From assembly GCA_002726655.1 (NCBI GenBank), contig PBRP01000015.1, positions 7,785 to 41,326 on the forward strand: a DNA stretch of 33,542 nucleotides, in the 5' to 3' direction. A program made the translations under genes and the position numbers. The stretch comes from Gammaproteobacteria bacterium. GTDB lineage: Bacteria; Pseudomonadota; Gammaproteobacteria; Pseudomonadales; Azotimanducaceae. Positions 4,679-9,608 of the stretch are shown here, one piece after another. How positions within the stretch are numbered: position 1 is the first letter of the stretch; each line of letters starts with the position of its first letter. The notes beneath the pieces are model-generated. The model saw only the letters and a list, made by a program, of their open reading frames with translations, did not search any database and had not been told where the DNA came from.

Positions 4679-4903
4679 TTGAATCGTCAAATAACTCAGT
4701 TGTCTGTCAGTGCTGCAACCTGCATATTTTTACCGGGCGGAAATCAGGTTGATGGACAATGGCTGATATTCGATACGGACATTGCTATGGTAAAGGTAGA
4801 TGAGAAATTTGTTTGGTTGGCGCGACCGGTCAGGATGAGTGTTGTTCCCGTGGAATTGACCGGCAGGACGACGTACAAAAGGACAATATTGGAGTCTAGA
4901 TGA
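4679..4903 (+). CDS. Possible small hypothetical protein coupled to the phosphodiesterase gene
   Basis: This is an open frame of 74 codons beginning with TTG and ending in an ATGA overlap with the following gene. I do not recognise the product. The residue make-up is protein-like (QWLIFDTDIAMVKVDEKFVW then LARPVRM), with no signal peptide or membrane segment. There is no convincing ribosome binding site. It could be a small coupled gene, a remnant of a larger gene, or just leader sequence. The overlap with the downstream start is the only positive argument beyond openness. Confidence 0.3.
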   Translation: MNRQITQLSVSAATCIFLPGGNQVDGQWLIFDTDIAMVKVDEKFVWLARPVRMSVVPVELTGRTTYKRTILESR

Positions 4904-5889
4904 ATAGAATTAGAATACTGGCAATGATCATGGGACTATATTGTCCCGGCGCAATAACCCTTGCCGATTGTCCGCAGTCTGACCCGGTAGTGATAGCCCA
5001 CCGGGGAGCCAGCGGTCATCTGCCGGAACATACTCTAGCAGCGTTTAAACTCGCCATCGAGATGGGTGCTGACTATATTGAGCCGGACCTGGTTATTACA
5101 AAGGATGGTGAGTTCATTGTTCGTCATGATCACTATCTAAGCCAGACAACGGATATTGCTGATAAACCGGAATTCAGCAGTAGACGCAGGGATCTTGGTG
5201 GTCGAAACGATTGGTTCTCAGAGGATTTTACCCTCGCTGAAATCAAGACACTGCGGGCCCGGCAGCCATTCAAAGGCAGGTCCAGGGAGCATGATGGGAT
5301 ACATCCAATCCCCAGGTTCCAGGATGTCATTGAATTGGTTAAGAATGAGTCGGAACGACTTGGCAAAGCTGTTGGTATTTACCCTGAGACTAAAGAGCCG
5401 GGTTACTTCGAAACCCTGGGGTTTGATGTTGATGAGATGCTGATCGCCCTGCTCGACAAAAACGGTATGAACGAGCATGACTCGAAAGTAATCATTCAAT
5501 CGTTTGAGCCTGAAATTTTGAGATCTCTGAACAACAGAGTCAATGTACCGCTGGTTCAATTAGTAAGCCCCTCAGGTAACAAGGTCAATGAGGATGGAAG
5601 CTATCAGTCTAACATTTCACTAGGTGAGCTCAGCGAATACGCTGATGGTGTTGGTGCCGCAAAGTGGCTGCTGGTTAACCAACAAGGAAAAGCCAATGAC
5701 TTTGTTAGTCGAGCAAAGAAGCTGGGTCTGTTCATACACGCCTGGACGTTTCGAGAGGATGCTTATCCGGAAGAACTCTTTGCCAGTGGTGAAGAGGAGC
5801 TGAAGTTTTTCCTGAAAATGGGCATCGACGGGTATTTCACTGATTTCCCCGACACCGACGTCAAAGTCAAGGAATGGTGTCAGCAGTAA
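4900..5889 (+). CDS. glpQ: Periplasmic glycerophosphodiester phosphodiesterase
   Basis: This enzyme hydrolyses deacylated phospholipids (glycerophosphocholine, -ethanolamine and so on) to glycerol-3-phosphate and an alcohol. The 329 aa protein has a signal peptide (residues 1-22, ending TLA). The GDPD signature is intact: IAHRGASGHLPEHT gives His34, Arg35 and Glu43; IEPDLVITKDG gives Glu61 and Asp63; His76 is in IVRHDH. YPETKEPGYF and HAWTFRED further along are typical of the periplasmic GlpQ branch rather than the cytoplasmic UgpQ branch. GGAG lies about 8 bp before the ATG. Its divergent neighbour is a GlpT-like antiporter, as expected for a scavenging pair. Length is close to known GlpQ proteins. 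Confidence 0.9.
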   Translation: MNRIRILAMIMGLYCPGAITLADCPQSDPVVIAHRGASGHLPEHTLAAFKLAIEMGADYIEPDLVITKDGEFIVRHDHYLSQTTDIADKPEFSSRRRDLGGRNDWFSEDFTLAEIKTLRARQPFKGRSREHDGIHPIPRFQDVIELVKNESERLGKAVGIYPETKEPGYFETLGFDVDEMLIALLDKNGMNEHDSKVIIQSFEPEILRSLNNRVNVPLVQLVSPSGNKVNEDGSYQSNISLGELSEYADGVGAAKWLLVNQQGKANDFVSRAKKLGLFIHAWTFREDAYPEELFASGEEELKFFLKMGIDGYFTDFPDTDVKVKEWCQQ

Positions 5890-6082
5890 TTGTTGTGCTG
5901 ATAAGACAACGAAACAGCTAAGCCGTGTGACATCTTTGCGCAGAGTGGTTTGAAAATTATTGGGAACCACTTCGATTCATGATGTGAAGGGGCGAATCGC
6001 CGCCCACTGAGAGTAGGAAGGTTCAATTCAGTTGATATAACTTTCATGCAGCTTTGAAAAAACAGCAAGTCATCGGAACTTT

Positions 6083-6111
6083 TTGATGGATAGACAATCC
6101 ATAAGTATGAA
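6083..6111 (+). promoter_or_regulatory. Possible promoter for a small RNA
   Basis: TTGATG at 6083-6088 and TATGAA at 6106-6111 are spaced 17 bp, each matching the consensus at four of six positions. It would start transcription near 6118, about 100 nt before the T-run of the terminator at 6211-6218. Matches this weak are common by chance. Confidence 0.22.
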
Positions 6112-6117
6112 GCTGCA

Positions 6118-6218
6118 ATTCCAGTTTTGAGAAAGAACATCGGTGACTTTCCCCCAAAGCGATCGATGATTGGACTCTGGCTCTTTCACAAACAGGAAAG
6201 GGTCAGGGTCTTTTTTTT
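6118..6218 (+). ncRNA. Candidate ~100 nt small RNA ending in an intrinsic terminator
   Basis: A promoter-like pair and a very stable terminator bound about 100 nt with no reading frame that looks translated. The predicted RNA has an unstructured 5' half and a 15 bp terminator stem followed by eight T residues, as in Hfq-bound small RNAs. It could equally be the 3' end of a long glycerophosphodiesterase mRNA. No known RNA family was recognised. Confidence 0.25.
6173..6218 (+). terminator. Strong rho-independent terminator
   Basis: GACTCTGGCTCTTTC (6173-6187) pairs over 15 positions with GAAAGGGTCAGGGTC (6196-6210): twelve Watson-Crick pairs and three G-U wobbles. The loop is 8 nt (ACAAACAG) and TTTTTTTT follows at 6211-6218. 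Wobbles that keep pairing on this strand only, together with the T-run, point to termination of + strand transcripts. The nearest upstream gene ends at 5889. Confidence 0.8.
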
Positions 6219-6265
6219 AGCAGTTTACCTGTTCTGTTTCTGAATCCTGATTCTGAGTGAAAATT

Positions 6266-6280
6266 GGGTACACTGTACCC
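6266..6280. promoter_or_regulatory. 15 bp dyad, possible operator for the homocysteine methyltransferase gene
   Basis: GGGTACA-C-TGTACCC is a perfect palindrome with a one-base centre, ending 21 bp before the ATG at 6302. A one-base centre cannot form an RNA hairpin loop, so a DNA-binding dimer site is the natural reading. Palindromes of this size occur by chance about twice in a window this long. Confidence 0.3.
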
Positions 6281-6301
6281 GAACTCAAGAAGAGAACGAT
6301 T

Positions 6302-7288
6302 ATGCCCAAGTACCGCAATGCCCTCCCTCAGCTAGCTGCTGACAAATTGTTTCTCACCGATGGAGGGCTGGAGACCGAATTTATCTTTCATCATGGCATT
6401 GATCTGCCGTTGTTTGCGTGTATTTCATTGTTTTTTGGAGAAGCGGAACACCTGCCGATACTGTACAGGTATTACGAGGACTACATTACAGCAGCTAAAT
6501 CTGGTGGCTATGGTTTCGTGCTGGTAAGTGCCAACTGGCGGGCGAGTCCGGACTGGTTGAGGAAACTTGGCCTGCCGGAACAAGAATGGGTGGACGTTAA
6601 TCGTCATGCGATCACCTTCCTTGAGGAGCTGCGTGCTGCTCATGAGACCCCGGAGTTCCCCATGATAATTTCAAGCCAGATAGGCCCTAGAGGCGACGGA
6701 TACTCTATTGAGAATAAAATGACAGCTGATGAAGCCCAGGATTATCACGCCTGGCAAACCAATCTCTTTGCGGAAACCGAAGCCGATATGATTGATGTCC
6801 TGACCATCAATTATGTTGAAGAGGCTGTTGGTATCGCCAATGCCGCCAAGGAATCTGGCATGCCCGTGGTGATATCTTTCACCGTTGAGACTGATGGGCG
6901 GCTGCCCTCTGGTCAACTGCTTGGGGAAGCAATTGAGGAAACGGATGCGGTCACGGGAAACTATCCAATCTATTACATGCTGAACTGTGCGCATCCCGAT
7001 CATTTCGATAGCACCCTGAAGGAGGGCGGTCAGTGGGTCAGTCGTATCCGCGCCCTGCGGGCTAATGCCTCAAGACTAAGTCATGCCGAGCTTGATGAAG
7101 CTGAAACGATTGATTCGGGAGATCCTGAAGAGTTCGGTAAGCAGCATGCAGCACTTCGAGAGAGCTACCCTGGCTTTGTCATGTTTGGTGGCTGTTGTGG
7201 AACGGATAGTCGTCACGTGAAAGAAATCGCCAGGGCGTGCGCCACGTTGGGCGGTGCCCGGACTGATTTAGAATTGCCAAATCTTTAG
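6302..7288 (+). CDS. Homocysteine S-methyltransferase (MmuM-like)
   Basis: This enzyme moves a methyl group from a small methylated donor (S-methylmethionine, betaine or a sulfonium compound) to homocysteine, making methionine in the cytoplasm. The 328 aa protein has the zinc-thiol ligands of the family: one Cys in MLNCAHPDH and the Cys pair in FGGCCGTDSRH near the C-terminus. The N-terminal LTDGGLETEF is also typical. The frame is open from 6257, but ATG 6302 fits the conserved N-terminus and leaves the palindrome at 6266-6280 outside the gene. A purine-rich AAGAAGAGA precedes it. It is followed 48 bp later by an ArsC-like gene, perhaps cotranscribed. The donor cannot be decided from sequence. 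Confidence 0.88.
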   Translation: MPKYRNALPQLAADKLFLTDGGLETEFIFHHGIDLPLFACISLFFGEAEHLPILYRYYEDYITAAKSGGYGFVLVSANWRASPDWLRKLGLPEQEWVDVNRHAITFLEELRAAHETPEFPMIISSQIGPRGDGYSIENKMTADEAQDYHAWQTNLFAETEADMIDVLTINYVEEAVGIANAAKESGMPVVISFTVETDGRLPSGQLLGEAIEETDAVTGNYPIYYMLNCAHPDHFDSTLKEGGQWVSRIRALRANASRLSHAELDEAETIDSGDPEEFGKQHAALRESYPGFVMFGGCCGTDSRHVKEIARACATLGGARTDLELPNL

Positions 7289-7753: not shown

Positions 7754-8547
7754 ATGGAAAAAGAAGACGAATATCACGACAATATGGTTGCCATGCTCGA
7801 GTTGATCTGGGGCGAGGGATATATGGCGCCGGGCGGTTCCGGTAACGTGGCTAAAATGCTGCACAATCTGGAAACTCGCGGTAAGCGCATACTGGATATC
7901 GGTTGTGGTATAGGCGGTCCGGCAATTGAGATGGCCAGCACTTTTGGAGCAGACGTTGTAGGAATTGATCTTGAAACATCACTGGTCAGGCGTGCCGAAA
8001 AGTCTGCTGAGCAACATGGCTTGTCAGACCGATGCAGGTTCCAGACTGTTGAAGTAGGGTCATTGCCGTTTGCTGATTGTTCGTTTGATATTGTTGTGAG
8101 CGCAGGAGCGATTACACAGACCCGTGACAAGGAAGCTATCTAAGTGAATGTTTCAGGGTGCTTCAACCGGGTGGGTACTTGAGTTGCTATGATTGGAACA
8201 GATCCGATAGCGATTATTCAGAAGACATGTATTACTGGTTCAAAATGGAAGGCCTGACCTACGCCCTTGAAACACTCGATGACTATGCGACACATTTTCG
8301 TCATTGCGGTTTTATCGATATTGAAACCCAGGATGCATCTGACTGGTATCGGGTGCAGGCCAGTCACGAGTACGACCTTGTAAAAGGTGACCTGTACCAA
8401 CCCATGGTTGAACTTCTCGGTCAGGAGAGCGCGGATCATTTTGTCGAAAACTGGCGAGCCATGGTGGTTGTTTGTAACAAGGGTGAAATGCGACAGGGTT
8501 ATAGTCGGGGCGCCGAGCCGCGGGCGGCGAGCTGCGCCCTTGACTGA
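7754..8547 (+). pseudogene. SAM-dependent class I methyltransferase, broken by a one-base frameshift
   Basis: The first part (7754-8143) encodes a Rossmann methyltransferase start with motif I ILDIGCGIGGPA and motif II VVGIDLE. The second part (8158-8547) continues in another frame with VLQPGGYLSCYDWN, the usual region after motif III. Reading across the junction requires one added base near 8135-8145 (the frame after DKEAI would continue LSECFRVLQPGG). With that base restored the span is exactly 265 codons, a normal length. The opening IWGEGYMAPGG recalls phosphoethanolamine- or sarcosine-type N-methyltransferases, but the substrate is unknown. There is no good ribosome binding site, because the dispersed repeat ends 10 bp before the ATG. 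It could be a true pseudogene or a sequencing error. Confidence 0.8.
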
Positions 8548-9514: not shown

Positions 9515-9608
9515 ATCTCCAGTGCTGGATACCATTTCAGCGCTGGATTGATCTTCAGCAAATCGCGGGTCATTGTCCGCTGTCATTCCGGGTAAACAGG
9601 TGTCGTGG

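Follow-up and report, generated by a model that had tools for sequence, protein, structure and literature searches.

The window, by which we mean the whole stretch of 33,542 nucleotides that was analysed, comes from a contig of an Azotimanducaceae bacterium. We assigned this contig to the genus on sequence grounds, because neighbouring genes are 85–90 % identical to their counterparts in a sister genome. The features of interest are found around the gap between two genes of the same strand, which encode a glycerophosphodiester phosphodiesterase and a homocysteine S-methyltransferase (Table 1). Small open frames are present in the gap. A candidate remnant of a transporter on its minus strand, a 15-residue match with E 0.001 in a one-sequence search and a stop nearby, was dropped.

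Table 1. Coordinates of the two genes and of the features identified around the gap between them
Feature	Position in the window	Strand	Basis and remarks
Glycerophosphodiester phosphodiesterase gene	4900..5889	+	Pfam GDPD, E 3e-46; upstream neighbour of the predicted small RNA
-35 element GGAACTT of a sigma-E/AlgU-like promoter motif	6075..6081	+	Motif shared with relatives
-10 element TCCATAA	6098..6104	+	Shared motif; imperfect, TCCAT vs TCNNA in the relatives of the first set
Predicted small RNA	6105..6218	+	5′ end at about 6105–6110 from the promoter motif; 3′ end in the T-run
Stem-loop 1, GAAGCTG/CAGTTTT	6109..6128	+	Folds, alignment with five genus copies, pair-keeping changes
Stem-loop 2, loop UCCCCCA	6138..6168	+	Folds, R2 match, pair-keeping changes
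Stem-loop 3 (terminator stem), GGACTCTGGCTCTTTC-acaaacag-GAAAGGGTCAGGGTCT	6172..6211	+	Hairpin scan and folding; loop without C-run
T8 run of the terminator	6211..6218	+	Sequence
Palindrome GGGTACACTGTACCC (7-bp arms, GGGTACA-C-TGTACCC)	6266..6280	.	22 nt before the methyltransferase start
Homocysteine S-methyltransferase gene	6302..7288	+	Pfam S-methyl_trans, E 2.7e-33; downstream neighbour

Several observations were made on the surroundings of the gap. In the sister genome G002 (locus L059, the last 320 bases of contig G002:C30), the 3′ part of a dehydratase gene follows about 30 nt after the phosphodiesterase gene, at the contig end. This fragment is 90 % identical to the dehydratase of the window; either the whole region of interest was apparently deleted in G002 or the assembly is in error. 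Within the window, a methyltransferase-like gene at 7754–8547 is split between two frames, with a stop at 8143 and continuation from 8158 in another frame, which could be a frameshift or a sequencing error. A terminator-like hairpin of 12 pairs (9518–9547) starts 4 nt past the dehydratase stop and possibly marks the end of a gene cluster beginning with the methyltransferase gene.

The stem of the terminator consists of 15 pairs and a closing G-U pair and starts 283 nt past the end of the phosphodiesterase stop codon. The preliminary description of this DNA had reported the 15-bp stem with three G-U pairs, the eight T residues and the distance of 283 bp, and we confirmed all of these from the sequence. 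The three G-U pairs can form on the plus strand only, as it had also pointed out; that they are compensating, as it called them, is not evident from one sequence but was supported by the relatives found later. The terminator folds with −23.8 kcal/mol (z −6.3), a value equalled by none of 200 shuffles, and it ranks first among the 313 hairpin-plus-T sites of −8 kcal/mol or lower that we found in 24 stretches of the same genome (433,168 bases). We rejected the possibility that it is a genomic repeat: its 3′ half has one exact and two two-mismatch sites, compared with two for the reversed control pattern. Fold energy points to weak structure in the RNA outside the terminator, with z −2.2 for 6083–6171 (equalled by 6 of 200 shuffles) and z −1.0 for 5890–6171, and for this reason the single sequence could not decide the question of a small RNA.

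Searches for relatives by nucleotide sequence returned very little. BLAST against 38 relatives gave, besides the window itself, only matches with E ≥ 0.139, and at E ≤ 0.001 the own genome was the only one matched among 206 genomes of the family. Extending the search to 390 order genomes yielded one further match (G234, E 8e-4), which we discarded as it is located antisense inside a transporter gene. A nucleotide search of plasmids and phages with the intergenic DNA recovered nothing credible. In Rfam no family scored over the threshold on the window, and no riboswitch appeared even at E ≤ 10.

The Rfam result bears on the role of the terminator in the expression of the methyltransferase gene. 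As the hairpin is situated 84 nt ahead of this methionine-type gene, it might act as a conditional terminator, that is, a riboswitch or attenuator controlling it. Besides the negative Rfam searches, folding argues against such a switch, as keeping the 3′ arm of the terminator unpaired would cost 14.1 kcal/mol, and no shared element was apparent by eye in front of 19 methyltransferase homologues. We consider this explanation very improbable. The alternative of premature termination upstream of this gene, which the preliminary description had raised, found no support in the Rfam and riboswitch searches or in folding. The palindrome at 6266–6280 hints at a separate control of the methyltransferase gene and is a possible operator or repressor site. 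It has one exact site genome-wide and nine other sites with two mismatches, compared with four for the reversed control pattern. A candidate sigma-70 promoter for the same gene at 6247–6274 did not exceed chance level, since 122 of 200 randomised sequences contained an equal or better one.

Relatives were recovered using covariance models. The first model, R1, was built from a single sequence, positions 6083–6218, and at E ≤ 0.1 it matched 16 of the 206 family genomes; one of the matches is another copy in the own genome. Of the other four genomes in the genus, three yielded a copy with R1 and the remaining one, G002, later with the second model. Common to these relatives are a CCCCC-loop hairpin and a terminator of the type GGGCTCTGGTCAC...GTGATCAGGGCCC, and the shared RNA is about 110 nt long with three stem-loops. 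The second model, R2, was built from 13 polA-engB copies, with the window excluded and with one of the two copies of genome G001 (L120) left out as a near duplicate. Its structure contains seven pairs changed on both sides; none of 500 shuffles scored as high and, when the pairs were slid, at most one such pair was obtained.

When applied to the window, R2 matched 6130–6220 with 58 bits (E 3.1e-14), compared with 11 bits for the next best match in the window and 13.3 bits for the best match elsewhere in the own genome, of which 399,626 bases were searched. All 23 modelled pairs are standard in the window copy, and the homology is not confined to the terminator but includes the RNA preceding it. 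Covariation among relatives, which the preliminary description had suggested as a check, is present in the R2 structure, with the pairs kept in the window copy. Its proposal that selection acts on the RNA also stood: a model free of the window finds the window, and stem substitutions leave the pairing intact. In 55 of the 206 family genomes R2 gave a total of 67 matches, the own genome contributing two; the filters were stricter here, and some copies may have been missed. In the 390 order genomes it gave 19 matches in 18 genomes.

The positions of the relatives turned out to be highly uniform. All 17 relatives found with R1 (14 examined first and three later) adjoin polA and/or engB, and the same is true for 65 of the 67 family matches of R2. 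One of the two exceptions is the window copy, which has no polA or engB around it, and the other is a match of 23.7 bits on contig G161:C104, in which the terminator with the C-loop is present and stem-loop 2 is not recognisable. We did not count the latter as a relocated copy, and the window copy is the sole convincing one among the 67 matches in the 206 family genomes. The order matches, apart from the window copy, are all located near polA and/or engB, some of them a few kb off. In another family (f39), some R2 matches had neither gene within 1.5 kb; wider stretches at eight loci contained engB in all eight cases and polA in seven. At five loci of this family, all of genus g112 (L225–L229), several kb separate the relatives from polA as well as from engB, a layout that would fit insertion of other genes into the polA-engB gap.

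We also observed tandem arrays of ErsA-like RNAs at polA-engB, with four copies in L171 (G088:C23), three in L172 (G087:C25) and two each in L139 (G161:C10), L164 (G191:C19) and L168 (G190:C37). In the arrays of G088 and G087 the GAACTT-N16-TC motif is present before every copy.

This motif, which resembles a sigma-E/AlgU promoter, is widespread among the relatives. Each of the 15 sequences in the first set, among them that of the window, carries it in the form [GT]GAACTT-N16-TC. To characterise it in the larger set, we used 57 distinct members, which were obtained from 68 matches after removal of L173, of three matches presumed to mirror others on the opposite strand, and of identical duplicates. 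Three of these members were set aside for lack of upstream sequence. NGAACTT-N16-TC was found in 44 of the remaining 54, again including the window, and in 42 of these 44 the -10 element reads TCNNA; the window and one other member have TCCAT. In 433 kb of the own genome, both strands considered, GGAACTT-N16-TC has two sites, one of which is the site at 6075. From the position of the motif we infer that the small RNA probably starts near 6105–6110 and not at 6083, the first position given in the preliminary description. The promoter-like pair that it named, TTGATG-17-TATGAA, is indeed present at 6083–6111, but it does not stand out from chance, as an equal or better pair occurred in 143 of 200 randomised sequences. 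The pair is also absent from the list of our consensus promoter scan, and we replaced it by the GAACTT-N16-TC motif. The pair was scored with general sigma-70 base frequencies.

Alignment with the copy at polA-engB of the own genome and with those of four congeners showed that stem-loops 1, 2 and 3 are all kept in the window copy. The loop of stem-loop 2 contains CCCC in 55 of the 57 distinct members, and CCCCC is kept in the window. The situation is different in the terminator loop, where 56 of the 57 members have three C in a row and the window copy is the only one without them. The primary sequence has diverged considerably: the core of the window copy does not exceed 61 % identity with any of the other copies, compared with 82–89 % between the four genus copies and the polA-engB copy of the own genome. 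Its branch length is 0.42, compared with a median terminal branch of 0.07. In the tree of the 92-nt core the window copy remained unplaced, with support of 0.77 for grouping with one other copy and 0.0 thereafter.

The long branch, the imperfect -10 element, the lost C-run of the terminator loop and the occurrence in one genome only could mean that we are dealing with a decaying duplicate that no longer functions. The stems do not behave in this way. Between the window copy and the polA-engB copy of the own genome, 17 of 31 stem pairs are unchanged, six differ on one side and eight on both sides, and none is broken; manual matching of these pairs to predicted folds biases the comparison towards intact ones, and the held-out model R2 with its 23 standard pairs serves as an independent check. 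The differences amount to 22 changed stem bases, and when such changes were placed at random they broke a mean of 14.0 pairs, and at least five in every one of 20,000 trials. Since intact pairs together with the strongest hairpin-plus-T site of the sample are not the expected outcome of neutral decay, we disfavour this explanation and regard it as rather improbable.

The hairpin could also belong to the phosphodiesterase transcript alone, as the end of a 3′UTR of 283 nt that is perhaps processed to a 3′ fragment and has no promoter of its own. The phosphodiesterase mRNA needs some end, and the hairpin scan found no other terminator-like site on the plus strand of the gap (5890–6302), the hairpin being on the same strand as the gene. 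However, the homology extends upstream of the terminator, the relatives occur near polA/engB rather than downstream of phosphodiesterase genes, and a promoter motif is present at the position typical of the family, so that we find a 3′UTR as the sole explanation unlikely. A small RNA and a long 3′UTR are both possible at the same time, because the terminator that ends the small RNA would also halt read-through transcripts of the phosphodiesterase gene. Such read-through likely terminates here, and this would insulate the methyltransferase gene.

We therefore conclude that positions 6105–6218 of the plus strand are very probably a gene for a trans-acting small RNA. It would be a paralogue, now diverged, of the ErsA-like RNA encoded between polA and engB, and would have been relocated to the gap between the phosphodiesterase and methyltransferase genes. 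The window RNA has the homology, three stem-loops with preserved pairs, the GAACTT-N16-TC motif and a very strong terminator. Several points speak against this conclusion, namely the presence at this place in only one of the 206 family genomes (the own one, by BLAST), an Rfam score for RF01719 of 14.9 bits against a cut-off of 50, the deviating TCCAT element (TCNNA in 42 of 44), the lost C-run of the terminator loop, the hand-matched pairs that favour intactness, and the unremarkable fold energy without the terminator. The preliminary description had raised a possible new small RNA; the small RNA is supported by the 58 bits of the window-free model, but it is not wholly new, being a relocated relative of an ErsA-like family.

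As for its function, a factor of the sigma-E/AlgU type would transcribe the RNA, its U-tail could bind Hfq, and the exposed CCCCC loop of stem-loop 2 may pair with G-rich stretches of target mRNAs. The predicted site of ErsA for anr is the U-rich domain II and not a C-rich loop, according to excerpts of the ErsA literature (PMC8575079), and the C-loop as the target-binding part is therefore deduced from its conservation. The loss of the C-rich terminator loop suggests that the target set has changed with respect to the polA-engB copy. Going further, we can tentatively picture a neofunctionalised stress RNA that kept promoter and fold, lost one of two C-rich target-binding loops and acquired targets of its own, by which envelope stress might be linked to the surrounding phosphodiester, methionine and one-carbon genes, but this remains doubtful.

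In the genomes examined, the ErsA-like RNA otherwise stays near polA/engB, and here one genome carries both that copy and a relocated, diverged one. The two form a natural before-and-after pair for the question of how small RNAs gain new targets, and may show how an ErsA-like RNA duplicates, moves and changes while its shape persists. A search of the literature, covering a minority of subscription papers, revealed no relocated or duplicated ErsA. R2 also uncovers, in more than a quarter of the family genomes (55 of 206) and sometimes as tandem arrays, a branch of ErsA-like RNAs missed by the Rfam model.

Small RNAs adjoining polA are known from enterobacteria and vibrios, in which Spot 42 (spf) occupies this place. 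The relatives of the window RNA resemble Spot 42 in being next to polA, and among the matches listed in Rfam searches of the window and of 28 loci of relatives there was none to it.

The closest known system is ErsA of Pseudomonas aeruginosa, for which we rely on excerpts of three papers. They place the gene in the polA-engB gap (PMC8575079), describe an RNA of 132 nt with sigma22 promoter motifs (PMC7565897) under the control of AlgU/T that represses oprD with Hfq (PMC7264166), and report that it also acts on anr (PMC8575079). The window RNA is similar to ErsA and its Rfam family Pseudomon-1 (RF01719) in having three stem-loops, the last of which is the terminator, a C-rich loop in stem-loop 2 and a GAACTT-type motif upstream, and its relatives are located in the same polA-engB gap. 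It differs from ErsA in the linker between stem-loops 1 and 2, which is 9 nt long in the window (6129–6137), whereas ErsA has a U-rich unstructured domain of 34 nt there, as given in the excerpt of PMC8575079. It also differs in its score, as the 14.9 bits for RF01719 correspond to E 2.3 and are below the gathering cut-off.

RF01719 exceeded its cut-off in 17 of the 390 order genomes, all of another family (f21). All 17 loci hold polA and/or engB, and R2 finds 16 of them with 21–31 bits. In the bacterial family of the window the Rfam model scored 25–28 bits in 4 of 14 loci. None of the 14 loci from the order search was over the cut-off, none of 14 named control genomes was matched, and no member of the window's family was found among the 390 order genomes at E ≤ 0.001. 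The polA-engB copies are nevertheless likely orthologues of ErsA because of the common site, promoter motif and architecture, the Rfam score alone being insufficient for this assignment. With the polymorphic polA-engB small RNA of Azotimanducaceae described by R2, the window RNA shares the fold, the promoter motif and the CCCCC loop, but 65 of the 67 family matches are at polA and/or engB and the window copy lies elsewhere, with its strongly diverged core.
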